From a virus: DNA of 50,267 bases. Made by a program: the position numbers and the translations under genes. The notes under the pieces are model-generated. The model did no database searches, was not told where the DNA came from, and saw nothing but the letters and a program-made list of their open reading frames with translations. Position 1 is the first letter of the stretch. Each line of letters starts with the position of its first letter. Positions 10,911 through 29,146 of the stretch are shown in pieces. Where the stretch lies: IMG/VR virus record IMGVR_UViG_3300036760_000785, positions 1 to 50,267 of that record. The stretch is one strand, 5' to 3'.

Positions 10911-11222
10911 GTGAAAAATATGAGAATACCACCTAAACCGTTTAAGCCAGGAGAGGGAGGTCGACCTAAGGGTTCTAAAAATAAGTTTACCTCTCTAAAA
11001 GATAAATTTATTCTTGCATTTGAAAAAACGGGCGACGTAAAAGGATTAGTTGATTGGATTAAAAAAAATCCCAAAAATAGGGCGGCTTTTTATCAGATGA
11101 TTACTAAACTTTTCCCTGTTGATATAGCTCATAGTGGCGAAATAAAAACTACTGTAACCTTTATCATGCCTCGACCAGGCAAGAAAAAAGATGCAGACGC
11201 GACTACAGAACATAATTTATGA
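10911..11222 (+). CDS. Terminase small subunit candidate (AT-hook-like N-terminus)
   Basis: A 103-residue protein (100 if ATG 10920 is used). FKPGEGGRPKGSKNKFTSLK is the GRPKGSKNK type of AT-hook-like motif found at the N-terminus of DUF5681 and several phage small terminase proteins. A helical region follows. Position directly upstream of, and overlapping, the large terminase gene supports a role in recognising the packaging site. It is shorter than usual small terminases (about 150 residues) and lacks an obvious separate HTH, so the call is by context. Confidence 0.6.
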   Translation: MKNMRIPPKPFKPGEGGRPKGSKNKFTSLKDKFILAFEKTGDVKGLVDWIKKNPKNRAAFYQMITKLFPVDIAHSGEIKTTVTFIMPRPGKKKDADATTEHNL

Positions 11223-12645
11223 GGCGCAGCCAAAACAGGCATTATTTCATGCTGCACCCGAGACCTATAAACTCTACGGCGGTTCAATGGGAAGTGGCAA
11301 GTCGTTCGCTTTGTGTGCTGAGGGCATTGCCCTTTCATGCGACTATCCTGGCAATCGGGGTTATATTTGCCGCGATACCCTGAAGGCTTTTAAGAAAACA
11401 ACTTATTTGGTTTTGGATGATATGCTCCAACGATCAGGGCTCATTACAAAACACCACCAGACTGATAACTATTACATACTCCAGAACGGATCGGCAATCT
11501 ACTACGGAGGATTAGGTGATGATCAGAAGGCGATTGAGCGGCTGAAGTCAATGGAGCTTGGATGGTTTGCAATAGACGAGGCGTCGGAGACTACGGAAAG
11601 ATTTTTCCTCATGCTTGCTTCGCGCTTGAGAATAAAATTGCCAGATATAAGATACTTTGGCCTACTTGCCTCGAATCCTGATCCTGGCTGGCTGAAGCAT
11701 CGGTTCATAGACAGGAAAGAGCCTGATCATGTTTTCATCCCAGCTTTACCTCGGGACAATGGCAAACTTGCTCCTGGGTATATAGAGAGACTTGAGGCGA
11801 TATTCCCGGATGCCTGGCGGAAGCAATTCTTGGAGGGTGACTGGACAGCCTTCGAAGGTATAAATAATGTCTTCCCATTCCAGGCGATTTCAAAGGCGAT
11901 GCAGAATGAGATTGAACCAGGGAAGCCCAGAGAGTTAGGAATAGATGTGGCTCGATATGGGGATGATGAATTTGTCATCGTGCTTAGGGAAGGTGGCAAG
12001 GTATCAATACGTAGGAGGATAAAGAAATCGGACTTGATGGAAGCGACGGGGATAGTTGTCCAGGAAATAAAAGACCTCAATCCTGATGGAGTAAAGGTGG
12101 ATGCCGATGGTTTAGGGTCTGGTGTTGTTGACCGTTTAGGGGAAGTTATGCCTTGTGAATGGTTATTGAAAGTTGGTATAACAGAAATACATGCTGGGGT
12201 AAGGGCCAATGATTCCGAGAGGTTCAGGAATAGGAAGGCTGAGATTTACTGGGGGTTCCGAGAACGATTAATTGCGGGCGAGGTATCATTGCCCGATGAC
12301 CTTGACCTTCAGGCGCAGTTGACATCAATAACTTATAAAGTAAACTCGACAGGGCAGATAGAGATTATTTCCAAGGAAGAGATGAAAAGGAACGGATTAA
12401 AAAGTCCGGACATTGCAGAAGCTGTAATCTATGCTTTTACGGAGCCGGACCAACCTGTGCGTACTGGCCAGATCTGGTTCCCAGGCAAGGAAAGGATTGT
12501 CGAAAGAATAAAAAGAAAAGAGGAGAAGGAATCACAGTCAAGCGAGTCGATTCCTGTATTGGTTCCCAGGGAAACCGTCATAGAGGAGCCGAAGGATAAG
12601 AAAGATGCTGGACGAGGAAAAGGAAAAACAAGGGTCTTCATCTAA
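11191..12645 (+). CDS. terL: Terminase large subunit
   Basis: A 484-residue protein with Walker A GGSMGSGKS (30-38), Walker B WFAIDEAS (Asp near 129), and the RNase H-like nuclease beginning LGIDVARYGDDEF (Asp near 252) with VDADGLGSG and SPDIAEA further on. It is the DNA translocating motor and cuts concatemers during packaging. Length is normal for the family. It overlaps the small subunit candidate by 32 nt and the portal gene by 41 nt. The packaging mode (cos or headful) cannot be read from the sequence. Confidence 0.95.
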   Translation: MQTRLQNIIYEAQPKQALFHAAPETYKLYGGSMGSGKSFALCAEGIALSCDYPGNRGYICRDTLKAFKKTTYLVLDDMLQRSGLITKHHQTDNYYILQNGSAIYYGGLGDDQKAIERLKSMELGWFAIDEASETTERFFLMLASRLRIKLPDIRYFGLLASNPDPGWLKHRFIDRKEPDHVFIPALPRDNGKLAPGYIERLEAIFPDAWRKQFLEGDWTAFEGINNVFPFQAISKAMQNEIEPGKPRELGIDVARYGDDEFVIVLREGGKVSIRRRIKKSDLMEATGIVVQEIKDLNPDGVKVDADGLGSGVVDRLGEVMPCEWLLKVGITEIHAGVRANDSERFRNRKAEIYWGFRERLIAGEVSLPDDLDLQAQLTSITYKVNSTGQIEIISKEEMKRNGLKSPDIAEAVIYAFTEPDQPVRTGQIWFPGKERIVERIKRKEEKESQSSESIPVLVPRETVIEEPKDKKDAGRGKGKTRVFI

Positions 12646-14098
12646 AGGTGTAAAGCGGGTCTTCTATTTCATCAAGACAAGCAGGGGTCTTGTGCCGCTT
12701 AATGAGTTGAGGAAGGCCGAGAAGAGAAAGCAACAGACTGAGTCAAAGCAAATCAAGGCCGAGAAGGAGTTTATTACCCTTCATAATCTTATACCCTACC
12801 CATTTAATGTGCAGGGTTTTCTTCTGCTCCTTGAGAATTGCTCATTCTTCGATGCCTGTGTGCGCCAGATTGCAAAGGATGTGGCTGGCCAGGGTTACAC
12901 TATTAACTTGCGCAAAGGAATCGAGACCGAGAATGATGATGAAAGAAAAGCAATTGAGGATTTCCTATCTGATCCAAATGCTGACGAGGATAGCCTGGAA
13001 GACATCATTGAGCGTCTGATAATTGACTGGGGTTGCATCGGGTGGTTCGGCCTGGAGGTAAGCAGGGATGAGGTAAACAAGGTCAATGGTCTATATCATA
13101 TTCCTGCGCATACGTTCTGGATACACAAGGAAGAGAAGAAATATTGCCAACTATGGATGAATAAGACTATCTGGTTCAAAAAATTTGGCTATGAAGCAGA
13201 TATAGATGCAAAATCGGGCGATGAGTCAAAACCAGTAAGTCCAGAAAATCTTGCCCACGAGTTGATCTACTACCGCAATTACTATCCTCGATCCGCCTTC
13301 TATGGTGCTCCCAATGCCCTCTCCGCCGTCGGAGCCATTAAGGCTTTGATTAGCATCCGTGATTATAACCTGGCATTCTTTGAGAACTATGGGATCCCAG
13401 CTGCGCTAGTCACAGCAGAGGGAGACTGGGGAGAGGATGAGTCTGGTATAAGCAATGTGAAACTCCTCAATGATTTCATAAACTCAGAACTCAAAGGTGC
13501 AGATAATGCACACAAGACAGTCGTACTAAATCCGCCAGCAGGAGGGAAGGTCACCTGGACGCCACTCGTGGTTGAAGTCAAAGAGGGCCATTTCAAACTC
13601 TATTTCAAGAATCTGAGAGATGAGATACTTGTTGCCTACAAGATGCCTTCGTACAGAATCGGTATAACTGAGCAGGGTAGCCTCGGAGGATCGACGGCGG
13701 CGGAGTCCACGCGTATTTATATTGACTCGATTGTCAATCCACTCAAACGGGTGATTAACCATATCTTCTCGGAGAAGATAATCAAGGACGGCTTAGGAAT
13801 TGAGTCTTATGAGTTTAAACTTGGGGAGCTTGACATCCGCGACATGAATGCGATTGTTACTCGTTGCCAAACACTGTTTGGCATGGGTGGCCTGAGCAGG
13901 AACGAGTTAAGGCAAGAGATTGGCAAATCAAAGCTGCCCGATACCGAGGATGGGGACAAATACTATATCTCGACTTCCTATGTGCCGATAGGTGAGGAAA
14001 GTGCACTGGCTTCATTGAGTGCCAGGGATGCAGCGGCCGAGGATTTGAAGAAGAAGGTGGATGAGATTCTGAAGGGAATGAGGAGTAAAGGGAAATAG
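12605..14098 (+). CDS. Portal protein
   Basis: A 497-residue protein. The core reads FFDACVRQIAKDVAGQGYTI, then GCIGWFGLEV, YGAPNALSA, MPSYRIGITEQGSLGGSTA and VNPLKRVINHI, which is the order of HK97/SPP1-type phage portals. It forms the dodecameric ring through which DNA enters and leaves the capsid. The basic N-terminus (about 1-60) and a Lys-rich C-terminus are likely flexible. The next gene, encoding the MuF protein, starts immediately after the stop, as usual. Confidence 0.92.
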   Translation: MLDEEKEKQGSSSKGVKRVFYFIKTSRGLVPLNELRKAEKRKQQTESKQIKAEKEFITLHNLIPYPFNVQGFLLLLENCSFFDACVRQIAKDVAGQGYTINLRKGIETENDDERKAIEDFLSDPNADEDSLEDIIERLIIDWGCIGWFGLEVSRDEVNKVNGLYHIPAHTFWIHKEEKKYCQLWMNKTIWFKKFGYEADIDAKSGDESKPVSPENLAHELIYYRNYYPRSAFYGAPNALSAVGAIKALISIRDYNLAFFENYGIPAALVTAEGDWGEDESGISNVKLLNDFINSELKGADNAHKTVVLNPPAGGKVTWTPLVVEVKEGHFKLYFKNLRDEILVAYKMPSYRIGITEQGSLGGSTAAESTRIYIDSIVNPLKRVINHIFSEKIIKDGLGIESYEFKLGELDIRDMNAIVTRCQTLFGMGGLSRNELRQEIGKSKLPDTEDGDKYYISTSYVPIGEESALASLSARDAAAEDLKKKVDEILKGMRSKGK

Positions 14099-15535
14099 AT
14101 GAGCATAGAACTTCTTGAACTCCACAAGGCACTGACTACTTACCTGCATAAAGGCAAGCGTAGGGAACGGGCACTTCTACGGCATAAGCGGCTCTTGAAG
14201 GAGACAAGACCGGCAATGGCCGCCGCCGCGATGAAGTGGCTTGAGATGATGAGGCGAGAGATAATGGCGACACTGTTGCACTCAAGAGGTAACAATGCAA
14301 CTGAACTATTAAACAAAGTAGATTGGGAAATGCTCAAGGAGAAGAGTGCGAACATCTTCAAGCCAGTCTATCTGAAGATTTTGAATGAAGGCGTGCGTAG
14401 CATCTTTGCCTTGAGAAAACAAGAAGATGAGATGGATGAGATATCGGAGGAGGCAATTACCTGGGCCCGAAGTCAATCTGCGAGACTCGTCACCGAGATA
14501 GATGCAAATACCAGAAAAGGACTAAGGCAGTTGATCGAAGAAGGTTTGGCAAGTGAGGAAGGTTTATCAGTACAGGAACTCGCAAGGCAGATAAGATCGA
14601 TGATCGGATTGACGGATAGGATGACAATGGCGGTATCAAACTACCAAGCAGAACTTCTTGCACGAGGGATGGCTGCCGAGGATGTCGAAAGGGCCGTCGA
14701 GAAATATGAAAGGCAGCTCCTAGCCTACCGTGCCGAGATGATTGCTAGGACAGAGACAGCGGAGGCATTGTCTGAAGGTACAAGGCGGGCTTATAAAGTG
14801 AATGGTATTAAGGAACTTGAGTGGGTTGCCGATCCTCAATGCTGTGCGGAATGTTCAGAGAATAATGGCAAAACATATTCTGTAGATGAAGCAGAGGGGA
14901 TGCAACCTGCCCATCCGAATTGTTTACCGGAGGATTCTTTTATATTGGCCTGTGGAGGAATCTCTTCCGTTAGTAAAAGGTGGTACGAAGGAGAAATGAT
15001 TATCCTTGAGACAGCCTCTCACCGCAAACTCTCCTGCACCCCAAATCATCCGATACTCACAGATCGGGGATTCTTGCCTGCGAACTTGTTGAATATAGGT
15101 AGCAATGTAATCAGCCACGGATTCAGTCAAAGAGAAATTTTTGGAGATTGGAATAATTATTATAGACCAACCTTGATTGAGAATATAACGAATTCTTTCC
15201 TCAAATCTTCTGGCGTGGTCACCAATAAAATGCCAACCTCCTCCATAGATTTCCACAGCGACGGGATAGGCAGCAAGGTCGCAATTATAGGCACCAATCG
15301 CTTTTTAAAGATTCTTAATCGTAGTCATAGGAAGATCGATTCGAAGAAATTCCCCGAGGATATTTCTTTTTCTTGGTTTCACGACAAGGTCATTCATTTT
15401 GATACCTCATTTTTCCGAGGGTATGTCCATAATTTAGAGACAGAGAAATCATATTATATTGCTAATGGGATTGTCAACCATAATTGCGAATGCTGTTTTG
15501 TAATGGCGGTCGGCGAGGAGATGCCGGAGGAATGA
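14099..15535 (+). CDS. MuF/SPP1 gp7-like minor head protein interrupted by an intein
   Basis: A 478-residue precursor. Residues 1-274 are helical and contain the MuF signature ERQLLAYRAEMIARTETAEA, then WVADPQCCAECSENNGK and AHPN. Residues 275-462 are an intein. Residues 463-478 complete the family's HPNCxC motif (CECCFVM). Splicing would yield a 290-residue protein, normal for the family. MuF proteins bind the portal inside the head and can be ejected. C-terminal additions on MuF proteins are often polymorphic toxins, but here almost nothing follows the intein. The gene abuts the portal gene. Confidence 0.88.
   Translation: MSIELLELHKALTTYLHKGKRRERALLRHKRLLKETRPAMAAAAMKWLEMMRREIMATLLHSRGNNATELLNKVDWEMLKEKSANIFKPVYLKILNEGVRSIFALRKQEDEMDEISEEAITWARSQSARLVTEIDANTRKGLRQLIEEGLASEEGLSVQELARQIRSMIGLTDRMTMAVSNYQAELLARGMAAEDVERAVEKYERQLLAYRAEMIARTETAEALSEGTRRAYKVNGIKELEWVADPQCCAECSENNGKTYSVDEAEGMQPAHPNCLPEDSFILACGGISSVSKRWYEGEMIILETASHRKLSCTPNHPILTDRGFLPANLLNIGSNVISHGFSQREIFGDWNNYYRPTLIENITNSFLKSSGVVTNKMPTSSIDFHSDGIGSKVAIIGTNRFLKILNRSHRKIDSKKFPEDISFSWFHDKVIHFDTSFFRGYVHNLETEKSYYIANGIVNHNCECCFVMAVGEEMPEE
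14921..15484 (+). other. Mini-intein (188 residues, no homing endonuclease)
   Basis: It begins with Cys (CLPEDSFILA, block A), has TPNHPILTDRGFLPANLL (block B with the TxxH motif), and ends VHNLETEKSYYIANG then IVNHN (blocks F and G: His then terminal Asn), followed by Cys as the first extein residue. All residues needed for splicing are present. The central 85 or so residues show no LAGLIDADG or HNH motif. The insertion splits HPN from CEC, the predicted metal-binding loop of the MuF domain. Confidence 0.9.
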
Positions 15536-16202: not shown

Positions 16203-18266
16203 ATGAAACGAATCATTATTATTGTAACTCTTTCAGTTCTATTACTTATCTCTCTCTCTGCCAATCCCGGGACGACTTATTATGTGGATGCAACAGGTGG
16301 CAATGATAGCAATAGCGGTCTAACCGAAGCCCTAGCCTGGAAGACTATCGCCAAGGTCAACGCTTCGTCTTTTTCTGCTGGCGACTCCATTTTCTTCAAG
16401 CGGGGCGAGACGTGGCGGGAAACATTAACCGTGCCATCGTCTGGCTCGTCTGGCAGTCCGATTACTTTTGGCACATACGGGACGGGGGAGAAGCCGAGAA
16501 TTTTAGGTTCTAATTTAATGACAGGGTGGGCTGCTTATGAAGGGTCTGGTGCAAGTACATGGACTGCGACAGAGCAAACGGGTGTATCGGCTATTGATGA
16601 TACAGACAGTGGTTTCCTAAATATCAGAAATCTCGTTAAAGCAACCTCAATATCCATAAGTGGGACTCAAGTTAGATTAATATTAACTCCTCATAGTGCT
16701 ACTACATTTGCTATAGAGGGGCTAACGATTGGACCAAGAAGTGGAACCACTGACGATTTTTCTGCTGCACCTACTCCATTACTCTATGAGGGTCTTGCTG
16801 TATCAGCAACTAATCCTATAATTTTAACAGGTGGGGGATCAGATGTTTTAACAGATTGGACTACTTTTACCCTTGATGAGACAGCAGATTATTTGATTCA
16901 TATTTGGCAAGATGATGATATTAGTGTGCCTGTCAAGGCTTGGAAACCTGATCCTGGCCCTACTAATATGTATTATAGTTATTCTTCAACAGACTTTTCT
17001 CAGACGCAAACCTGGAGCGGAACTGCATACAGAAGTATATTTTGTGTTAAACAAATTGATGTTAATGCCCCCCCGCCAAATGTGTGGCAAAAAACGGGAG
17101 TAACAACCGCACCTAATGTTGTAATATTTAATGGAACGTGGGGGGAATATGAATCTGGAGGAATTGCGGCGTTAGATGCCAATTATGAATGGTATTGGGC
17201 ATCTAATGTTTTATATGTCTATACTGATGGAGGTGATCCTGATACTCAATGGCCTAACGGAATAGATGTTGGGCAAAGAAACGATGGTGTTGTAATAAAT
17301 ACAAAAAGTTATATTACCATAGAAAATCTTGATATCAGGTATACAAACAGACATGGCATTAATATGACAAACTGTGACTATTTAACTATTCAGGATAGTT
17401 CCATATCTAAAATTGCCAGAATGGGCTTAAGTGGATATGCGATAACTAATTGTACGTTTGATAATATTATTTGGAGTTATGGATCGAAAGGCGTTGGCAT
17501 TTCGGATGGTTCTGATAATAATATAATCCAAAATTGTGATTTTTCGGAAAGCAGAACCACGAAATCAGAAGCGGGGGGCGGAGGGCTAATGTTATATGAT
17601 TCAGATTCTAATATTATTCGTTATAATTATCTCCATGATGCCAAATTAGTTGAAAATGATAGGCAAGGAGATGGAATTTATCTTAATTCTGGCGGCGATT
17701 GTAACAACAATGAGATTTATTACAATGTAATTGTGAGATTCAACGACGGAATAGATATTTATGGTGATGGAAATTCAATTTATAATAATGTTATTGGTAG
17801 CAACCAATATACCGCTATAGCAATTGGCACTGGGGCAAGTAACAATATTATCAAAAATAATATTGTTTATGACGGTATAGTTAACAATTATTTATGGGAT
17901 GGGAATAATCCTGGAAGCCCGGCCGCAAGTAATACCATTGATTACAATTGTTATTATGACCCTGATAATCCCGATCCAGATGGCGATCCTTTTATTGATT
18001 GGAATGCTACGGGAGAAGCCTGGGGAACTATGAATTGGAATCAATGGATAGCTCATGGAAAATATGATCAACACTCTATTTACGCAGACCCCAAATTTAC
18101 CGACCCCGCCACCGGTGACTTCACCCCCCGGCCCACCTCCCCCTGCATCAATGCCGGAACGAATGTCGGCCTGACAAGGGATTATGAGGGGAAGCCTATA
18201 TTCCATGCTCCAGATATCGGGGCTTATGAGGATCAGACGAATGCTTTATTTATATCTATCTATTAG
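16203..18266 (+). CDS. Secreted right-handed beta-helix protein (pectate-lyase-like fold)
   Basis: A 687-residue protein with a clear signal peptide (KRIIIIVTLSVLLLISLSANP). TTYYVDATGGNDSNSGLTE is the typical opening of polysaccharide-lyase-like beta-helix proteins. Residues about 380-600 are rich in N-I-I, N-x-I and Y-N repeats (parallel beta-helix rungs), and INAGTN with DYEGKP near the end is a common closing motif. Such proteins bind or cleave polysaccharides. Catalytic residues cannot be assigned. The codon use becomes AT-rich in the centre. It sits between head genes, so it is probably accessory cargo acquired by transfer. Confidence 0.75.
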   Translation: MKRIIIIVTLSVLLLISLSANPGTTYYVDATGGNDSNSGLTEALAWKTIAKVNASSFSAGDSIFFKRGETWRETLTVPSSGSSGSPITFGTYGTGEKPRILGSNLMTGWAAYEGSGASTWTATEQTGVSAIDDTDSGFLNIRNLVKATSISISGTQVRLILTPHSATTFAIEGLTIGPRSGTTDDFSAAPTPLLYEGLAVSATNPIILTGGGSDVLTDWTTFTLDETADYLIHIWQDDDISVPVKAWKPDPGPTNMYYSYSSTDFSQTQTWSGTAYRSIFCVKQIDVNAPPPNVWQKTGVTTAPNVVIFNGTWGEYESGGIAALDANYEWYWASNVLYVYTDGGDPDTQWPNGIDVGQRNDGVVINTKSYITIENLDIRYTNRHGINMTNCDYLTIQDSSISKIARMGLSGYAITNCTFDNIIWSYGSKGVGISDGSDNNIIQNCDFSESRTTKSEAGGGGLMLYDSDSNIIRYNYLHDAKLVENDRQGDGIYLNSGGDCNNNEIYYNVIVRFNDGIDIYGDGNSIYNNVIGSNQYTAIAIGTGASNNIIKNNIVYDGIVNNYLWDGNNPGSPAASNTIDYNCYYDPDNPDPDGDPFIDWNATGEAWGTMNWNQWIAHGKYDQHSIYADPKFTDPATGDFTPRPTSPCINAGTNVGLTRDYEGKPIFHAPDIGAYEDQTNALFISIY

Positions 18267-18524: not shown

Positions 18525-18722
18525 ATGAGGATAGTAAGGCATAGAGTGGTCGGCCTAGAGATTGTCAAACGATGTCCAGACTGTGGAGCTGGGATGTACG
18601 CCAAAAGTGCTTGTTGCGGATTCAAGAAGCAGGGATTCACGAGGATGCTCAAGTGCCTGAATGCGGCCTGCAAGCGCATGGAAGGATACAGAGAGAACCA
18701 AGATGAAGATAGAAGAGATTGA
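18525..18722 (+). CDS. Small zinc-ribbon protein
   Basis: A 65-residue protein with CPDCGAGM near residue 17 and a second Cys cluster (KCLNAACKRM near 47), plus a central CC. This fits a zinc-binding ribbon. The C-terminus overlaps the start of the large polyprotein gene by about 20 nt, which suggests coupled translation. Zinc ribbons at this position may tether or assemble the neighbouring protein, which is inference. Confidence 0.65.
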   Translation: MRIVRHRVVGLEIVKRCPDCGAGMYAKSACCGFKKQGFTRMLKCLNAACKRMEGYRENQDEDRRD

Positions 18723-21700
18723 CAGGGAAAAAATAAAGAAGGAATCCAATGCAGAATTAAGGAATCTGCGGTTCAGACTCATCCAGCTTTATGAAAAGCA
18801 TTTCTCGGGCAATGATGTCCAGGTGGTTGGCACACTAACTAGAGATTTTCTTCTCTCGAAATATATGATACTCAAGAGCGAGATGGATAGAAGGGGAATT
18901 CCTGTTGAGACGGTAACGAACCTTGATCGAGCATGTGAGACAAGGAAGATGAGGAAAGCTATCTGGGGCCTGGATGTGCCAAGTCTGGGCGATATGGTAA
19001 TAGTCGAAAATTATATCTCAATAGGCGGCTCGTTTATCAAGTCCCCGAAGGATGCGAAAGACATCGATATGATAATAAGGGATGAGGCCTCGCACAGAGA
19101 TGAAGGCCTGGAATTGAAACTTGGCAGGTTGATTCATGGAGAGACTGGCAAGGATGCTCATTTTGTTTATGCTCCGAAGGGGCCGCACTCAAGTTTCCTA
19201 CCGATATACGATCTTGTGCTCAGGCCAAAGAGCGAGACGAAAATAACCGAAGTAAAAGAATCACCCATAAAGAAATCTGAAAAAAGTCCAGAAGAATTAT
19301 ACTTCGAGAGATTGGATAAATGGGATGAATCGCTTCAAAAAGATAATGAGGAGGTGATTAGAAATCTGGAGGACGGCTCGGTCTTAGATTTGGGTTGTGG
19401 CACTGGGATATTGATAGCCAAACTAAGAAAAGATCAGGATCGGGTAGTGCAGGGGATAGATAAAAATGACATTGCTATCAGGTACTGCCAGGAGAAAAAA
19501 CTTCCCATTCTGAAGATTGATTTGGAAAAGGAGAGTCTGCCTTTTGATTCAGACCTGTTTGATAATGTGATTAGCGTACATGTCCTTGAACACCTGGAGA
19601 ATCCGAAAAATCTGATCGATGAAGCAACCCGAGTTGCCAAAAAGAAAGTTATTTTCCTAGTACCATTAGGAGCACGTCTCGACCCGACCCATAAACATAT
19701 ATTTGAAAAACTGGAAGACCTAAAAAAACTTTTCAGCGATAAATGGTCGTTCGAAGAAATTCCCGAGAACCGAACTGTTCTGGCCACCTTAGAAACAGGG
19801 ATGGAAATAAAAAAGGCAAAGGAGCTCAGGCCGGATATGATAGGATCCTTTCCCCTTCCTAAACCAACAATGAGGAATCTTACAGAAGCATTTACAGTCG
19901 ATCAAGTATGGCCGTGGTGTGAAAGCAAGGACTTAGAAGTCGAGCCGAAGCTTAATGGTTTTCGCATCTGTCTAGTTGGAAAAGGAGGAAAAGTCAGAAT
20001 TATAACTGATGGGCTGAAGGACAGGACAAAGCACTATCCCGACATAATCACCGCCCTTGAGAAGGTACCAGATGATTTTATTCTGGACTGTAGTATGGGA
20101 ATTGAGAGAGATGGTAAACCCTTGCCTAGAATAAAACTTATGACTTTAATGTCAGACAAACCCGAACTTCAGGAAAATGACAGGATTATCTGCACAGTTT
20201 TCGATTTGCCATATTTCAAAGACGATATTCATTTGAGGCCCTTTGAAGAGAGAAGAAAATTATTAGAGGAATTTTATAACAAATATCTGAAGGGCTCTCC
20301 AAATTTTGATATCACGCAGACTGCTCGGATAAAAACAAAAAGCGAACTTGAGGAATACTTCAAGAAGTTTGGAAAACTGCCTCAGAGTGAAGGCGTTGTA
20401 ATTAAGGATATGAAGGGCATCTGGCCGCTTGATGGCAACTGGGATGACATGGCAAAATTGAAACATGAAGTGGAAATAAAAGTGATAGTATTAGAGCGGC
20501 ATGATGTCAAAGGCGGAGGCTATAACTATACTTGCGGTTTATTATCTGGATCCTCTGGGTATGAGAACCTCGCTGAGTTTCGAGCGCAGAAGTATATTAA
20601 TTTAGGCAAGTGTTTCAATACAAAACTCAAAGCCGAGCCTGGTGATATTCTCACAATGGGAGTTGAGGAAATTATTCCAGATGAAGAGAAAAACGTGCTT
20701 CAATGGCTGGGTGCCCGAGTCATAGATATTGACGATTCCAGAAAAACGCCGTATTTCGCAAACCAGGTTATAGACATAGCTGAAGAAGGCAATATCCTGC
20801 AGAAGGCCGAAGAGGGAAACATAGACTATAAAATTGGGGATAAAGGCAAAGGAGTACTGCAAATTCATATCATGGGTATCGAGGAAGAAAAGATTGATGC
20901 CTTGAAGAAGATATCGAAAGAAGCAGTTGCCTCAAGAAATAATCCCATGAAGTTGAAAATGTTATTTAAGGGTGCTATTGGCCAGCAAGGTGCACATATA
21001 GACATGCGACTTGTGAGATCGGGCGATAAATATTTTGAAGGTGGCGAGATTATGATTGGAAATTTCGACGGCTTGGAGAAGTTGAAAAAACTGGATGAGG
21101 GCGGTAAGTTAAGGTTCGGGTGGAAAGTTGCAAGGAAAGAGGAACCACAGGCTGAGACGATAAGAGGGCCGGTAGATTGGATGGATGCGGGGAAAAATGG
21201 GATAGAGATATTCCCTCCAGGCGAGGCGGGTGCTACCACAAATAAATACGGGGCAATGCTAATTCTCGATGAATTTACTTTTGAAGCTATAGAACCCCAG
21301 GATGACCACGCAAAAAAATTCAATCTCGAAGGCAACAAACTAATTCCTGAAGGTACATACCTTATGGCCTATGTACCGATAACAGAGGCAGGGGAAAAAG
21401 GGCCCAGAGTATGGATGATATCAAAACTCAAGGAGGAGGAGAAGGCGAGGTTCTTCAAGTTTATCAAGATCAATAAGAAACAGCAGATAGTTGGCGGGGT
21501 GATATATGAGCCGATGGTTGAAGATTCGCAAGGTGACTATGCAGATGCTGAAGAAATCCAGAAGGCGATGTATAAGTTTATGGAGAAATATTTCATGAAT
21601 CAAAGCCGAATAAAAATCATGCACAAGGGCAAACTCCATTCGTTCCCTATTCTTGAATGTTTCCAACCAGAGGAAGATACCAAGAAGGGAAAGGATATTA

Positions 21701-21828
21701 TCAAGGCAGGAAGTTGGTGGGTCATGATAAAAATAGCAGATAAGAATATTTGGCAGGAAGTGGAGAAGGGTGTTTTAAAAGGATTTAGTATGGCTGGCGT
21801 TGCATCAGAGGAAAAAGTCTCGGTATGA
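18703..21828 (+). CDS. Five-domain fusion: nucleotidyltransferase, methyltransferase, ligase, LigD-PE-like, XkdF prohead protease
   Basis: A 1,041-residue protein. Residues 95-185: pol-beta-type nucleotidyltransferase (GGSFIKSPKDAKDIDMII; D120 and D122). 205-350: class I SAM methyltransferase (LDLGCGTG near 228; HVLEHLENP). 405-700: ATP-dependent-ligase-like (EPKLNGFR with K416, SEGVVIK with K568, AKLK near 585) plus an OB-like region. 715-905: similar to LigD phosphoesterase (HIDMRL at 765-770, NKYGA, then FNLEGNKL), lacking two of the usual His. 920-1041: XkdF-type phage protease (VGGVIYEPMVEDSQGDYA, RIKIMHKG, GFSMAG). Capsid proteases process scaffold. The other domains could be packaged cargo. 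ATG 18661 is an alternative start. Confidence 0.85.
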   Translation: MKIEEIDREKIKKESNAELRNLRFRLIQLYEKHFSGNDVQVVGTLTRDFLLSKYMILKSEMDRRGIPVETVTNLDRACETRKMRKAIWGLDVPSLGDMVIVENYISIGGSFIKSPKDAKDIDMIIRDEASHRDEGLELKLGRLIHGETGKDAHFVYAPKGPHSSFLPIYDLVLRPKSETKITEVKESPIKKSEKSPEELYFERLDKWDESLQKDNEEVIRNLEDGSVLDLGCGTGILIAKLRKDQDRVVQGIDKNDIAIRYCQEKKLPILKIDLEKESLPFDSDLFDNVISVHVLEHLENPKNLIDEATRVAKKKVIFLVPLGARLDPTHKHIFEKLEDLKKLFSDKWSFEEIPENRTVLATLETGMEIKKAKELRPDMIGSFPLPKPTMRNLTEAFTVDQVWPWCESKDLEVEPKLNGFRICLVGKGGKVRIITDGLKDRTKHYPDIITALEKVPDDFILDCSMGIERDGKPLPRIKLMTLMSDKPELQENDRIICTVFDLPYFKDDIHLRPFEERRKLLEEFYNKYLKGSPNFDITQTARIKTKSELEEYFKKFGKLPQSEGVVIKDMKGIWPLDGNWDDMAKLKHEVEIKVIVLERHDVKGGGYNYTCGLLSGSSGYENLAEFRAQKYINLGKCFNTKLKAEPGDILTMGVEEIIPDEEKNVLQWLGARVIDIDDSRKTPYFANQVIDIAEEGNILQKAEEGNIDYKIGDKGKGVLQIHIMGIEEEKIDALKKISKEAVASRNNPMKLKMLFKGAIGQQGAHIDMRLVRSGDKYFEGGEIMIGNFDGLEKLKKLDEGGKLRFGWKVARKEEPQAETIRGPVDWMDAGKNGIEIFPPGEAGATTNKYGAMLILDEFTFEAIEPQDDHAKKFNLEGNKLIPEGTYLMAYVPITEAGEKGPRVWMISKLKEEEKARFFKFIKINKKQQIVGGVIYEPMVEDSQGDYADAEEIQKAMYKFMEKYFMNQSRIKIMHKGKLHSFPILECFQPEEDTKKGKDIIKAGSWWVMIKIADKNIWQEVEKGVLKGFSMAGVASEEKVSV

Positions 21829-22853
21829 AAATGAAGGCAGCAATCCTGGAGAAGTTAAATTCTCCTCTTATCGTTGATGATCTTGAGATTCCGGATTTAG
21901 ATTATGGTCAGGTTTTGGTCAAGGTCTGCCGGTCTGGAATCTGCGGTGCGCAAGTGGATGAGATATCTGGCAGAAAAGGAGAAGATAAATATCTTCCTCA
22001 TCTCCTGGGACATGAAGGCGGGGGAGTTATTGAGGATATCGGCCCAGGGGTGACCCTCGTCAAGAGAGGCGATCACGTGGTCATGCACTGGCGGAGGGGA
22101 GACGGCATCGAATCGAATCCGCCGAAATACAGAAGAAACGATGGATCAATTGTAGGTGCAGGCTGGGTGACGACCTTCAACGAGTATGCAATAGTATCAG
22201 AGAATCGGCTCACACCTATCGATGATGACATCCCTTTTGAGATTGCCGCACTTATGGGTTGTGCTGTGACAACCGCACTTGGGCTAATAAACAATGAGGC
22301 GAAACTGAAGATCGGGCAATCGATTGCCATTATCGGATGTGGCGGAGTCGGGCTAAATATTATTCGTGGGGCGGCAATGGTATCGGCTAATCCTATAATA
22401 TCCATTGATCAGTACCGTCCAAAATTGAGAATGGCAGAGGGGTTAGGAGCAACTCATCTACTCACAAGCGAGTCTCTCCTATGGGATGATACCCAAAGGA
22501 TACGAAATTTCATTGGAAGTAGAGATCTCGATGTAGTTGTGGATTGTGCTGGTTCTTATCGCCTGATTGCAAATATATTTAAATTAATGTCACCAAAAGG
22601 AAAATTGATATTACTGCGGCCCATATCTCAGTTATTGCCGGGATTCGTAGATGGCATAGAGGTGATGAATAGTTCAGGTGGCTATACTAATCCGAATGAA
22701 GATATCCCCCGGTATCTTGACCTTTATCGCAAAGGCAAACTCAGTCTCGATGGTCTGATAACGCATCGCTTTCCTCTTTCTGAGATTAACATTGCACTTG
22801 ATGTAGTCAGAAGTGGGCAGGCAGGGCGAATCATCTTGGAAATTGCAGGTTGA
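21825..22853 (+). CDS. Zinc-dependent alcohol/polyol dehydrogenase (MDR family)
   Basis: A 342-residue protein of the medium-chain dehydrogenase superfamily: RSGICGAQVDE (catalytic zinc Cys), LGHEGGGVIEDIG (His and Glu), and the NAD-binding IIGCGGVGLNIIRGA near 170. The four-cysteine structural zinc lobe of classical alcohol dehydrogenases is absent. It would oxidise or reduce a hydroxyl group of a polyol or sugar. It starts in ATGA overlap with the protease fusion and overlaps the next gene (TGATG), forming a compact three-gene cassette. The substrate is unknown. Confidence 0.88.
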   Translation: MKMKAAILEKLNSPLIVDDLEIPDLDYGQVLVKVCRSGICGAQVDEISGRKGEDKYLPHLLGHEGGGVIEDIGPGVTLVKRGDHVVMHWRRGDGIESNPPKYRRNDGSIVGAGWVTTFNEYAIVSENRLTPIDDDIPFEIAALMGCAVTTALGLINNEAKLKIGQSIAIIGCGGVGLNIIRGAAMVSANPIISIDQYRPKLRMAEGLGATHLLTSESLLWDDTQRIRNFIGSRDLDVVVDCAGSYRLIANIFKLMSPKGKLILLRPISQLLPGFVDGIEVMNSSGGYTNPNEDIPRYLDLYRKGKLSLDGLITHRFPLSEINIALDVVRSGQAGRIILEIAG

Positions 22854-24052
22854 TGAACTCAAGAATCTCAAAGAAAGACCTTATTGATTTTGAAAGACAT
22901 ATTGCCGAACTTTATGATGATGGCCAAATTCCATACCTTGTCCATTTATGCGGGGGGAACGAAGATCAATTAATTGAAATATTTAAAGACATCAAACCCG
23001 ACGATTATGTCTTTTCAACGCATAGAAATACCTATCATTATCTTTTGCATGGCGGGTCACCTGGGACTTTGGAGCAAAAAATCCTTAATGGAAAGAGTAT
23101 GTTTATTTTTGATAGAAAATTAAACTTCTTCAGCCTGTCTATAGTTGCGGCGACCCCAGGTATTGCGGCGGGGACATCCTGGGCCTTGAAAAGAAAAGGA
23201 AGCAAACAAAAAGTCTGGTGTTTTGTGGGTGACGGTACAGAGGATGAAGGGCACTTTTATGAGGCGGTGCGCTATGTCGATGGCTGGAACTTGCCTTGTA
23301 TATTCATAATCGAAGATAATGACAGGAGTGTAAAAGCCACAAAAAAAGACAGATGGAATGAGGGGTCTAATTTTATCTGGAATAAAAAGTGCGTGCGAAA
23401 ATATTGTTATTCTCCCACTTATCCTCACAGTGGAAGTGGAAGCAATAAGTGGGTAAAATTCAAAAGGGAAGCAAAGATTGTTAGGCGTCCCAAAAGAAAG
23501 ACTTCTGATATAGATATTGCCACATCGGTTGAGACATCCATGACATATTTTGACGCCGTTAAAAGTTCGATGGAAATGCTGGCTAAGAATCCATCCACTA
23601 TTTTCGTAGGATACAATGTCAAATACGGGTCTGCATATGGTTCATTAAAGAATATCCCAGAAGACCAAAGGGTTGAGACTCCTGTGGCGGAGAATTTGAT
23701 GGCGGGGTTGGCCCTGGGAATGTCACTAGAAGGATATAGGCCAGTTCTTTTTTTTGAAAGGCATGATTTTATTCTGAATGCCGCTGACCTTATAGTCAAT
23801 ACTTTGGACGTAATAGAGACTATTTCTGATGGTGAATATTCCATGCCAATTGTCATAAAAGCCGTCGTTGGATCAATAAAACCTTTCTATGCTGGGATTA
23901 CGCATTCCCAGGATTTTTCTGATTTGATTAGGGGCTTTGTATCCTTCCCTGTTTACACCCCAATAAATGCAAAGCAAGTGCTGGCTGTCTATGATAAGGC
24001 GAGAACTACCATAGGGCCTATGATGATTAGCGAAAGAAAGGAATTGTATTGA
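22853..24052 (+). CDS. TPP-dependent dehydrogenase/transketolase-like protein (fused alpha and beta parts)
   Basis: A 399-residue protein. The N-terminal half matches the alpha subunit of 2-oxo-acid/acetoin dehydrogenase E1: GDGTEDEGHFYEAV with a DN about 30 residues on is the TPP motif. The second half matches the beta subunit (TYFDAVKSSMEMLAKN, ETPVAENLMAGLALGMS, FFERHDF). The C-terminal transketolase domain of beta subunits is missing, so the protein is a shortened fusion. It probably makes or breaks a C-C bond next to a carbonyl. Overlaps on both sides tie it to the dehydrogenase and the SDR. Confidence 0.8.
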   Translation: MNSRISKKDLIDFERHIAELYDDGQIPYLVHLCGGNEDQLIEIFKDIKPDDYVFSTHRNTYHYLLHGGSPGTLEQKILNGKSMFIFDRKLNFFSLSIVAATPGIAAGTSWALKRKGSKQKVWCFVGDGTEDEGHFYEAVRYVDGWNLPCIFIIEDNDRSVKATKKDRWNEGSNFIWNKKCVRKYCYSPTYPHSGSGSNKWVKFKREAKIVRRPKRKTSDIDIATSVETSMTYFDAVKSSMEMLAKNPSTIFVGYNVKYGSAYGSLKNIPEDQRVETPVAENLMAGLALGMSLEGYRPVLFFERHDFILNAADLIVNTLDVIETISDGEYSMPIVIKAVVGSIKPFYAGITHSQDFSDLIRGFVSFPVYTPINAKQVLAVYDKARTTIGPMMISERKELY

Positions 24053-24765
24053 AATCTGTATTGATAAGTGGCTCTTCAAGCGGACTAGGGAGAAGTCTCG
24101 CTCTTGTCTTTGCTAGGAATGAATTTAATGTCATTCTGCATGGAAGGGATGAGGAAAGGCTGGAATTAGTTAGAAGGATGATTCTAATCAGAAGACAAAT
24201 GTCCAGGAGCGAAATTGAATGTGACGTTATAAGAGGTGATATAACGTCGAAAGATATACTGGACGAGTTATTCAGGGCGGCAGAGAAAAGGAACCTTAAT
24301 ATCCTGATAAATAATGCGGGCATTCACGCTCACAAAAGGTTTCAGGACATGAATGAAGATGAGGTTCAGAATATTATCCAGACCAACCTGATTGCACCAC
24401 TCCAACTGATCCTGAAAATTTATCCTCTATTCGTGAAGAAAAAATCGGGCGTGATAGTAAATATTAACTCTATCGCCGGCAAGTACCCTAATGAGATGGA
24501 GGCGGTCTATTGCGCAAGCAAGTATGGTCTAAGAGGATTTTCTGAGGCATTCCAATATGAGGCAGACAAGGATAATATTCGAATAATCAATATCTATCCA
24601 GGAGCAATGAAAACCCCTATGTCAAAATCAAGAATAAACCATAAAAAACTGATAACACCATCCGAAATGGCAGACTTGGTATATAAGATAGTTCTAGGGG
24701 AAGCTATAGAGGAAAATCGGAGCATGAGAGTGGCTGAAATCGAGCTGAGAAGAAAGAACTTTTGA
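24049..24765 (+). CDS. Short-chain dehydrogenase/reductase
   Basis: A 238-residue SDR with the NAD(P)-binding motif SGSSSGLG (7-14), NNAG near 88, a catalytic Ser in NINSIAGK and YCASK near 154, and PGAMKTPM. All catalytic residues are present. The TTG start overlaps the previous stop by four bases and lies immediately before the first beta strand, so the length is right. With the zinc dehydrogenase and the TPP enzyme it suggests a short pathway acting on a sugar or polyol. Such trios occur in surface-polysaccharide gene clusters of bacteria. Confidence 0.88.
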   Translation: MKSVLISGSSSGLGRSLALVFARNEFNVILHGRDEERLELVRRMILIRRQMSRSEIECDVIRGDITSKDILDELFRAAEKRNLNILINNAGIHAHKRFQDMNEDEVQNIIQTNLIAPLQLILKIYPLFVKKKSGVIVNINSIAGKYPNEMEAVYCASKYGLRGFSEAFQYEADKDNIRIINIYPGAMKTPMSKSRINHKKLITPSEMADLVYKIVLGEAIEENRSMRVAEIELRRKNF

Positions 24766-25075: not shown

Positions 25076-25159
25076 GAGAAAGTCGAAGTACAGGAAATCT
25101 CATTAGTTGATTTGCCTGCAAATCGAAAAGCCTTTTACATCGTAAAGAGGAGTCAAAAC
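25061..25159 (+). pseudogene. Orphan C-terminal tail of the XkdF protease
   Basis: This open stretch, in frame with the scaffold and without a start codon, encodes LEKVEVQEISLVDLPANRKA then FYIVKR. The motif ISLVDxPANxxxF is the usual end of XkdF-type proteases, and the protease fusion at 18703 stops just before it (ending EEKVSV). The two ends share EEKV/LEKV. I infer that insertion of the 21825-24765 cassette cut off this tail. It is in frame with the scaffold, so the ancestor was probably a protease-scaffold fusion with internal initiation. Confidence 0.7.
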
Positions 25160-25771
25160 ATGGAAAATTTTTTAAAGGAAATTAAAGTTCTCTATGAGGA
25201 TGGGGAGTTTGAAGTAGAGAAGGCTGGGAAAATTCCGGAGGATGCCATGAAAGCGATCACCGGGGCCCTAAACATCCTCAACAAATATAAATCCGATTTT
25301 CCAGCCGATGTGCTAGACGCCATCAAGACGCTGGGTAAGTATGCCAGTTATGGATATGGGTATCCAGCCAAGAAGGAGAAGGCGGATGATGGAGAGATAG
25401 ACGTGGAGAAGATCGGGGCAAAATTAAGTAAGGCCACACTTGAAGAACTCAAGAAAATTCAGACGATTCTTGAGGGGCTGATTGGAACGGCGGAGGTGAT
25501 AAAAATGGAAAAACTGCCCGAGGATATTAGGAAGAAAGTCGAGGAATATGACAGGATCAAAAAGGAAGAGCAGGAGAAGTTGAAACAGGCCGATGCGGCG
25601 AAAATAAAAACATTGGAAGATAAAATCAAAGCCCTTGAGGAAGAGAATGCCAAACTCAAGGATGAACTCAAGACCAAGAAAGGCATACAGAAGGGTATCA
25701 AAGGGCAGGATGCAGATAAAGGAGACGAAAAGACAATACTGTGGCCTAGTCTAACTTCAACAGAAGAGTAA
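25160..25771 (+). CDS. Capsid scaffolding protein
   Basis: A 203-residue acidic protein. Residues 1-90 are helical, and residues 125-185 form a strong coiled coil (EEQEKLKQADAAKIKTLEDK and following). Position directly before the major capsid gene and after the protease fits a scaffold that is cleaved and lost during maturation. The start ATG 25160 is chosen because AGAGGAG lies seven bases upstream. The upstream in-frame sequence is the orphan protease tail. The C-terminus is polar (DEKTILWPSLTSTEE). Confidence 0.75.
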   Translation: MENFLKEIKVLYEDGEFEVEKAGKIPEDAMKAITGALNILNKYKSDFPADVLDAIKTLGKYASYGYGYPAKKEKADDGEIDVEKIGAKLSKATLEELKKIQTILEGLIGTAEVIKMEKLPEDIRKKVEEYDRIKKEEQEKLKQADAAKIKTLEDKIKALEEENAKLKDELKTKKGIQKGIKGQDADKGDEKTILWPSLTSTEE

Positions 25772-25785
25772 AAAGGAGTTCTAAC

Positions 25786-26898
25786 ATGAACAGTTCAAGA
25801 AAGTTGCTAGAGCAACTGAAGATCGAAAAGAGCCACAATCTCATTTCCCTTCCCCAGGTAGAACTGACATTCGAGGAGGCGGATCGTTTCATTGATTACA
25901 TGGTGGATGAATCGGCCATGAAAAAATTCGCCCGCATCGAAAGAATGAGGGGACCGGAAAAACCTATTAGGGCATTGGGTTTTGGAAGCGGACATTTCTT
26001 ATACCCAGCAGGAAACTTCAACGAGTCAAAATATACGAAACAATTCGTTGATGAAAAGATCATGCTGATGACCAAAGAGTGTCGGGGAGCCATCCCGATC
26101 TTCGATAAAGATCTTGAGGATATCCCGCCAACCATGTCCAGTGATGAATACAACAATCAACTCATCAAGATTATTGCCCTGAAAATCCAGAACGAGTTGG
26201 AAGAGGCGGGATGGATTTCTGAGACAGCGGGCCTAAATGGCTTCGCCGATGACGACATTCGGGGACTTTGGGATGGATGGCGATATAGAATTACCCACTC
26301 AGAAGTTGGCCAGCCGTACTATAACAAGGTAACAGGTTCGGCCCATATCCTCAATGCCTGCGAAGGCGGAGAGGCAGGCTCGCCATTTGAATATGATGGC
26401 AAAATTGCGGAAGCGGATGCCGACTATAAACACTGGGAGTTCAAATACGGGAAGATGCTGAAGGCGATGCCATCGAAATACAAGATGGCAAATGGCCTGG
26501 AGAAAATGGCCTTTCTGAATTCTGACTTGGTTACCCAAGACTATTTTGACGCGTTGTCGGCTAGGCCGACCCCTATTGGTGATGGAATCCTTACGGGTAA
26601 TTTGCCAATGGGGTATGGCAAAGTGAAGATCATTGATGTACCCTTGATGCCTGTCAATCTTGGGGATCCTACGGCAGTACCTTCGACTGATGGTATTATC
26701 GGAGAGGGAGAATATACAGACGTCCTTCTGACTCCAAAAGACAATCTCATCGTCGGAATTCAGCGCGATATCAAGATGGAATCCGAAAGAAAAGCGGCGG
26801 ATCAAGCTACCTATATCTTCTACTCGCTCAGGATCGATTTCGCGATTGAGAACGTGGATGCTGTTGTTCTCTTGCGGTGCCTTGAGCACGCTTGCTAG
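25786..26898 (+). CDS. Major capsid protein (HK97 fold)
   Basis: A 370-residue protein with the pattern of phage capsid proteins: an N-terminal arm, IPIFDKDLEDIPPT and then a long helix ending ELEEAGWIS (spine helix), and C-terminal segments on peptide-like strands (GKVKIIDVPLMPV, then ILTGNLPMGYG). It follows the scaffold with AAAAGGAG at its start. In the virion it would form the icosahedral shell. The first 20 or so residues may be a delta-like region removed by the XkdF protease. No covalent cross-link site can be assigned. Confidence 0.88.
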   Translation: MNSSRKLLEQLKIEKSHNLISLPQVELTFEEADRFIDYMVDESAMKKFARIERMRGPEKPIRALGFGSGHFLYPAGNFNESKYTKQFVDEKIMLMTKECRGAIPIFDKDLEDIPPTMSSDEYNNQLIKIIALKIQNELEEAGWISETAGLNGFADDDIRGLWDGWRYRITHSEVGQPYYNKVTGSAHILNACEGGEAGSPFEYDGKIAEADADYKHWEFKYGKMLKAMPSKYKMANGLEKMAFLNSDLVTQDYFDALSARPTPIGDGILTGNLPMGYGKVKIIDVPLMPVNLGDPTAVPSTDGIIGEGEYTDVLLTPKDNLIVGIQRDIKMESERKAADQATYIFYSLRIDFAIENVDAVVLLRCLEHAC

Positions 26899-28446: not shown

Positions 28447-28453
28447 GGTGGGA

Positions 28454-29146
28454 ATGGACTGGTCAAAATATAGGTTACTCAAGGATGTGCTTCCGCAGGA
28501 GAGCTGGTCTGGAAAACCTTGTGTGATTGTGGGCGGTGGACCTAGTTTGAAGGATTTCGACTTTGGCCTATTGAACAATGGGATATTATCCATCGGAATA
28601 AACCGTGCTTTCGAACGATTCGAACCGACAATGATTTTTTCAATGGATAAGATGAAATGGTTCACCTGGCTCCTGGAGGGAAGGTATGGCGAGGAAGCAA
28701 AGGAAAAGTTCTTGGCATCCAAGGCACTCAAGGTCCTGCTCCTGACCTACCAGCCAGAGGTTCCAGAATATATCTATGTAGTGCCCGTTTTGCAAAATTA
28801 TAAAGTAGGGATGACTGGGTTCTCATTCAATCTGGAGGATGGAGTTGCACATGGAAACAATTCTGGATTTGGAGCCCTGAATCTTGCATGCCTACTTGAT
28901 GCCAGTCCAATATATTTGCTTGGGTATGATATGCGGAATGATAATGGCCGCACCCACTGGCATGATGGCCATCCAAAAAAGGAGAAAGATGAATCCATTC
29001 CAAAACTTGCCCATAATTTTGAGCGGTGGGCGGATGAGATCAATAAGCGATGGAAAGTGATAAATCTGAACCCATATTCAGGCCTTAGATGCTTCGAGTT
29101 TGGCAATAGAGACGAGATATTTGGAGAGCGGAGGAACAATGGTTGA
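28454..29146 (+). CDS. DUF115/sialyltransferase-like protein
   Basis: A 230-residue protein with CVIVGGGPSLKDFDF near the N-terminus, the motif of DUF115 and GT42-like glycan enzymes, then GINRAFERFEPTMIFSMD, and PIYLLGYDMRNDNGRTHWHD (a conserved His/Asp region). Family members act in glycan assembly or bind nucleotide sugars. It forms a cassette with the next gene, overlapping it by 8 nt, and both interrupt the neck genes. Its target could be the virion or the host envelope, and neither is shown. Confidence 0.7.
   Translation: MDWSKYRLLKDVLPQESWSGKPCVIVGGGPSLKDFDFGLLNNGILSIGINRAFERFEPTMIFSMDKMKWFTWLLEGRYGEEAKEKFLASKALKVLLLTYQPEVPEYIYVVPVLQNYKVGMTGFSFNLEDGVAHGNNSGFGALNLACLLDASPIYLLGYDMRNDNGRTHWHDGHPKKEKDESIPKLAHNFERWADEINKRWKVINLNPYSGLRCFEFGNRDEIFGERRNNG

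Follow-up and report, generated by a model that had tools for sequence, protein, structure and literature searches.

Why does a viral capsid maturation protease share its polypeptide chain with nucleotidyltransferase, methyltransferase, ligase and phosphoesterase-like modules? This question is raised by one gene in the 50,267-base IMG/VR virus record analyzed here (the window). Positions 18661..21828 on the plus strand form a single uninterrupted reading frame of 1055 amino acid residues, counted from the first ATG. A start at 18703 (1041 residues) is likelier than one at 18661, because it aligns with the Met of two relatives, L001 and L002 (MRIEEI...), and leaves a smaller overlap with the upstream ORF. 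Residue numbers given here count from the first ATG and are 14 higher than those used in the original prediction. From the N to the C terminus, the predicted order is a Pol-beta-type minimal nucleotidyltransferase (NT; 18703..19266, residues 15-202), a class I SAM methyltransferase (19339..19701, residues 227-347), an ATP-dependent DNA ligase core (19918..20463, residues 420-601) with an OB-like region (20464..20775, residues 602-705), a LigD 3'-phosphoesterase-like (PE-like) domain (20830..21435, residues 724-925) and an XkdF-family capsid maturation protease (21457..21810, residues 933-1050), all on the plus strand. That one frame joins these parts to a capsid protease was already proposed in the original prediction, and both Pfam and our family profiles agree with it. 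The NT and PE parts were not detected in a Pfam search of the fusion ORF. Family profiles built without the window protein match all four modules for which they were made (ligase, 1e-68; protease, 5e-40; NT, 1e-37; PE, 1.5e-10), and the same profiles gave no match with E<=1 in 200 shuffled copies of the window protein or in the other ORFs of the window. Mis-assembly or frameshift fusion of separate genes, an objection foreseen from the start, is excluded by the many independent fusions found among relatives.

The C-terminal domain matches the XkdF family in Pfam (Peptidase_S78_2, residues 933-1050, E = 1.4e-25) with 90.2 bits against a curated cut-off of 24, and PHROG profiles recognize the C terminus as a head maturation protease (2.4e-28). 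H988, E999 and S1043 are invariant (22/22 members); by analogy with the family, H988 and S1043 are assumed to be the active-site His and Ser. Profile score, conserved His and Ser, and location between portal/MuF and scaffold/capsid genes all place the domain in the XkdF family. Upstream on the same strand are genes for the terminase large subunit (TerL, 11191..12645), the portal protein (12605..14098) and a MuF-like minor head protein (14099..15535). Downstream, also on the plus strand, are genes for a scaffold-like protein (25112..25771), homologous to an ORF beside the capsid gene in L001, L002 and L003, and for a major capsid-like virion structural protein (25786..26898; PHROG 1623, 3.7e-40) with a homologue in L001. 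Because it is flanked by these genes, the fusion ORF occupies the usual place of the head protease.

The MuF-like gene carries an intein-like insertion (Pfam Intein_splicing, 3.6e-6, residues 274-462) that interrupts the conserved HPNCECC motif. Between this gene and the fusion gene, positions 16203-18266 encode a 687-residue right-handed beta-helix protein whose N terminus has a signal-like stretch. Genes for a zinc alcohol dehydrogenase, a TPP-type E1/transketolase-like protein and a short-chain dehydrogenase lie between the protease and the scaffold-like gene (21825-24765). At 28448-31808, an MptE-like gene is followed by an ORF of 902 residues in which a GT9-type glycosyltransferase is fused to a methyltransferase; ORFs similar to the MptE-like gene also follow the capsid gene of L001 and L003.

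All motif residues of the NT are present in the window protein, namely G123 (hG[GS]), D134-x-D136 (DxD) and D184 (the third Asp), with the corresponding positions conserved in 40, 38, 39 and 33 of 40 sequences, respectively. An AF2 model of this domain has a pLDDT of about 91 (91.4). Foldseek gave no significant match to the model, with MNT-type NTases among the highest-probability matches (probability 0.54-0.63, E about 0.15-0.26), and the NT profile yielded no true match among PDB sequences. Judging by its motifs, we classify this domain as a Pol-beta-type NT that is unrelated to the LigD polymerase.

Residues 227-333 match MetW (1.2e-14) and Methyltransf_11 (6.6e-14) in Pfam, with the motif LDLGCGTG at residue 242. 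A methyltransferase of this type was found in the window protein only (1/37 scanned members); others have DNA methylases elsewhere in the chain. Extra modules among the 37 members include D12 adenine methylase (10), metallo-beta-lactamase (5), LigD_N (3), Pyr_excise (3; weak and short matches, T4-endonuclease-V-like), and C5 methylase, PNK3P and ChaB (one each). LigD_N was not found in six genomes with pattern matches. Because these companions, such as DNA methylases, act on DNA or DNA ends, the whole set is likely to act on DNA. Two loci, L007:2817-6425 and L009:5397-9599, have a metallo-beta-lactamase at the start, an ASCH-like match after it and then NT-ligase-PE, and in L117:8438-12277 an intein/LAGLIDADG-like insertion (residues 379-609) separates the NT from the ligase.

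The ligase core is recognized by Pfam (DNA_ligase_A_M, residues 420-601, E = 7e-21) and retains K430 of motif I, E577 and K582 of motif IV and K599 of motif V. Among 47 ligase sequences, the motif I Lys and the motif III Glu are each conserved in 45, and the motif IV Glu and the motif V Lys each in 46. An Asn in motif I, which had been regarded as suspicious, is ordinary in the family (9/47 sequences). By comparison with the same alignment, the telling change is Ser478, which replaces the motif III Glu. The window ligase may be weakened or inactive because of this replacement, and we describe its domain as ligase-like and not safely a ligase; relatives have the motif III Glu, and their ligase motifs are mostly intact, with L046, L077 and ANMV-1 virus among those whose motifs are preserved. 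The family ligase profile matched best with archaeal and Lig1-type DNA ligases (3gde, 3.7e-33), with LigD scoring lower (1vs0, 3.5e-16). The OB-like region (residues 602-705) is conserved in the family and falls within the ligase alignment (A7); a motif VI-like stretch at residue 686, RVIDIDDSRKTP, is weak, and so is its alignment to 3gde/3rr5. Standalone ligases (L011, L012 and L018-L026) were set aside, because family profiles detect neither PE nor NT in them.

For the PE-like domain, the reference residues are the metal ligands H42, H48 and D50 together with H84, in the numbering of Pseudomonas aeruginosa LigD. Equivalents of the three ligands are kept in the window protein as H736, H779 and D781. 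The first PE His is present as Q734-x-H736, and an insertion, which is also found in a shorter form in L006, separates it from H779-x-D781-x-R783. Two His were originally thought to be missing from this site; only one is, the third catalytic His equivalent to H84 (EDHP motif), which is replaced throughout the family. Because of this family-wide absence, we call the domain PE-like and not PE. The RGKS motif is altered in the window, and for this reason the window PE-like part may be weakened or inactive. Conservation of the Q-x-H-x-R-G-K-S-x-H-x-D-x-R motif is partly circular, as it was used to select most loci; the other PE residues identified in the window, P837, W840, G857 and T859, were not used in locus selection. 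Relatedness to LigD PE is visible at the family level only. The family PE profile matched exclusively LigD-type phosphoesterases in the PDB (best E = 3.8e-4), and its hhalign comparison with LigD PE from genomes gave a probability of 97.6, versus 0.1 for three controls. The window PE sequence alone gave 0.1 in hhalign, and a single-sequence PDB search with this region returned nothing. Thus, of the structural relationship to ligase and LigD-PE folds envisaged in the original prediction, the PE part has good profile evidence, but Foldseek with the AF2 model of this domain (fair, pLDDT 78.6) gave no significant match in the PDB or in a viral library.

The same architecture recurs elsewhere, as the original prediction had invited one to look for. 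Scanning IMG/VR with the PE motif yielded 94 stretches, which together with earlier finds and our own profile searches gave 103 loci, a number that includes near-duplicates and loci mostly located through the PE motif (the sequences in alignment A3 diverge too much for use in a pattern scan). The combination and order of NT, ligase and PE differ between these loci, and in many of them the modules are fused to XkdF. All three modules are found together in 66 of the 103 loci, and 19 of those 66 loci also contain XkdF. Non-redundant ORF orders include NT-ligase-PE (23), NT-PE-ligase-protease (6) and NT-ligase-PE-protease (5), among others; in some loci the set is divided over adjacent ORFs. The position between portal and capsid genes is constant: the portal gene is upstream on the same strand in 24 of the 26 loci where it was recognized, and the major capsid gene lies downstream, likewise on the same strand, in 29/29. 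NT, ligase and PE distances are pairwise correlated across 39 non-redundant members (Mantel r 0.41-0.61, 0/2000 permutations), a pattern that can arise from common virus ancestry alone. Because dN/dS in close pairs is mostly 0.01-0.25, the modules appear to be mostly under purifying selection in relatives.

The nearest protease relatives, L001 and L002, have no ligase, methyltransferase or PE. Because they match the window protein at its NT and protease ends only, the middle of the chain appears to be swapped as one block between relatives.

Host genomes with the family include Dehalococcoidia, Aenigmatarchaeota and Thermotoga MAGs. The family is rare there, with PE profile matches in 2/301 genomes of one phylum and 2/156 of another. 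Nine of twelve genome pattern matches, in which not one of the four modules was detected, were put down to chance. The only carrier of the trio that was found among 50,697 annotated phage records is ANMV-1 virus (tblastn with three queries; best 25 of 395 records for the L008 query).

The occurrence of this set between the same two shell genes in about 100 uncultured bacterial and archaeal viruses suggests a DNA-repair kit packed with the genome. We propose, with about an even chance of being right, that the protein represents the precursor of a capsid maturation protease and bears DNA-acting enzymes, and that these are packaged, injected and used to repair and protect the entering genome. The protease part would take the chain into the procapsid, where the chain would be processed, and the NT, ligase, PE-like and methyltransferase parts would remain with the DNA and be injected along with it. 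Upon entry, healing of 3' ends would fall to the PE-like part and sealing of nicks or breaks to the ligase; the NT would transfer nucleotides to ends or proteins, and methyltransferases would guard against host nucleases.

The strongest rival to this proposal places the same enzymes late in the producing cell, where they would mend nicks, gaps and blocked ends of concatemeric DNA near the portal and thereby keep the motor from stalling, with no delivery to the next host. It agrees with the position beside the portal gene and with the many members that have the trio without a recognized protease in the same ORF, and T4 packaging is known to benefit from ligase and nuclease. In many members, however, the modules are fused to a protease active within the procapsid, and modules such as DNA methylases would be more useful at entry. 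We consider repair before packaging to be rather unlikely.

Another explanation, which was the one originally put forward, is that a LigD-like non-homologous end-joining set circularizes the linear genome after entry. Ligase, LigD-PE-like and nucleotidyltransferase modules are indeed combined in a single chain, and this part of the original prediction, a recurrent fusion of these modules to a capsid protease, has held. The end-joining system itself has not. No Ku was detected in 41 records including that of the window, many of which are fragments from viruses that may depend on host-encoded Ku, in a search whose control, Bacillus subtilis, was positive. Similarly, Pfam scans of the window and family members reported no LigD primase-type polymerase. 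In addition, the NT is of the Pol-beta type, the PE lacks the H84 equivalent, and the ligase is nearer to the archaeal/Lig1 type. We prefer repair and protection over LigD-style end joining, which we regard as improbable, because Ku is absent from the 41 records, LigD polymerase was not seen and DNA methylases are recurrent.

It could also be that the N-terminal modules of the window lineage are worn-down passengers that serve as bulk or scaffold of the protease precursor. The motif III Glu to Ser replacement and the altered RGKS motif in the window point in this direction, as does the lack of ligase, methyltransferase and PE in L001 and L002. Nevertheless, the frame is open across 1041 codons, the protein retains the NT residues, the metal-ligand residues of the PE and most ligase motifs, and relatives are strongly constrained, leaving only a small probability for this explanation. 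Repair of RNA instead of DNA, for example of tRNAs cut by host defence, is the least probable, with weak RNA_ligase and ASCH matches in some members and the ability of 3'-phosphoesterases to act on ribonucleotide ends on one side, and, on the other, strong ligase matches that are all to DNA ligases and recurrent companions that are DNA methylases.

More tentatively than for the protein itself, we suggest that tailed viruses of archaea and bacteria possess a dedicated virion-delivered DNA repair and protection system, in which an ancient NT-ligase-PE trio, coupled to the protease of the capsid, is loaded and freed by maturation of the shell. If so, these viruses would bring their own ligase, end-healing and modification enzymes in the capsid instead of relying on those of the new host, and the capsid protease, by freeing them, would link capsid maturation to genome repair. 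This would also explain many "hypothetical" proteins of 1000-1800 residues in head cassettes from metagenomes, and would provide a source of small ligase and end-healing modules.

In the open-licence literature searched, we found no published description of an NT-ligase-PE-protease fusion, of LigD phosphoesterase in phage capsids or of enzyme-fused head maturation proteases; descriptions elsewhere are possible. Individual parts do resemble known systems. Bacterial LigD with a 3'-phosphoesterase domain has a ligase and a PE related by profile to that of the window family (probability 97.6), whereas the window family has neither LigD polymerase nor Ku, lacks the third catalytic His and has a ligase nearer to the archaeal/Lig1 type. 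XkdF-family head maturation proteases, such as Lactococcus phage 28201 gp33 (PHROG 3017), have the same protease domain and portal-MuF-protease gene order, but the Lactococcus protein is 349 residues long, and its protease domain lies so close to the N terminus that NT, ligase or PE could not fit ahead of it. The methylase-XkdF families PHROG 1530 and 13242 are matched by the proteases of the window and L008 (L008 matches PHROG 13242 in two stretches, one of which is its D12 methylase), but match no ligase, PE or NT.

The ANMV-1 virus protein annotated as "ATP-dependent DNA ligase" (AJP62006.1, KP703175.1) has the NT-ligase-PE order of the window in one 866-residue protein encoded directly after the portal gene; unlike in the window, no XkdF or methyltransferase was found in its chain, and its annotation is limited to ligase. 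The words ligase and portal are absent from the main text of the ANMV-1 virus paper (PMC4372165). In the same genome, L005:1913-3193 is annotated as "MutT-like phage hydrolase", but its product is probably the portal, given a match to Phage_portal_3 (3e-22). The ORF L005:5868-9368, after the ligase, encodes a cysteine-rich repeat protein of 1166 residues that, judged by eye, ends in a MuF-like motif.

The nearest known concept, which also offers a precedent for the proposed delivery in virions, is that of polyvalent proteins. Phages and conjugative elements encode such multi-enzyme chains along with their virion genes, and injection followed by processing by a peptidase was proposed for them (Iyer et al. 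2017, PMC5512222). The main text of that paper contains neither "DNA ligase" nor "XkdF" nor "S78". Like polyvalent proteins, which include Pol-beta NTases and DNA methylases, the window family has several enzyme domains per chain in a virion gene context; the hub peptidase of polyvalent proteins is a zincin metallopeptidase, whereas that of the window family is the capsid serine protease.
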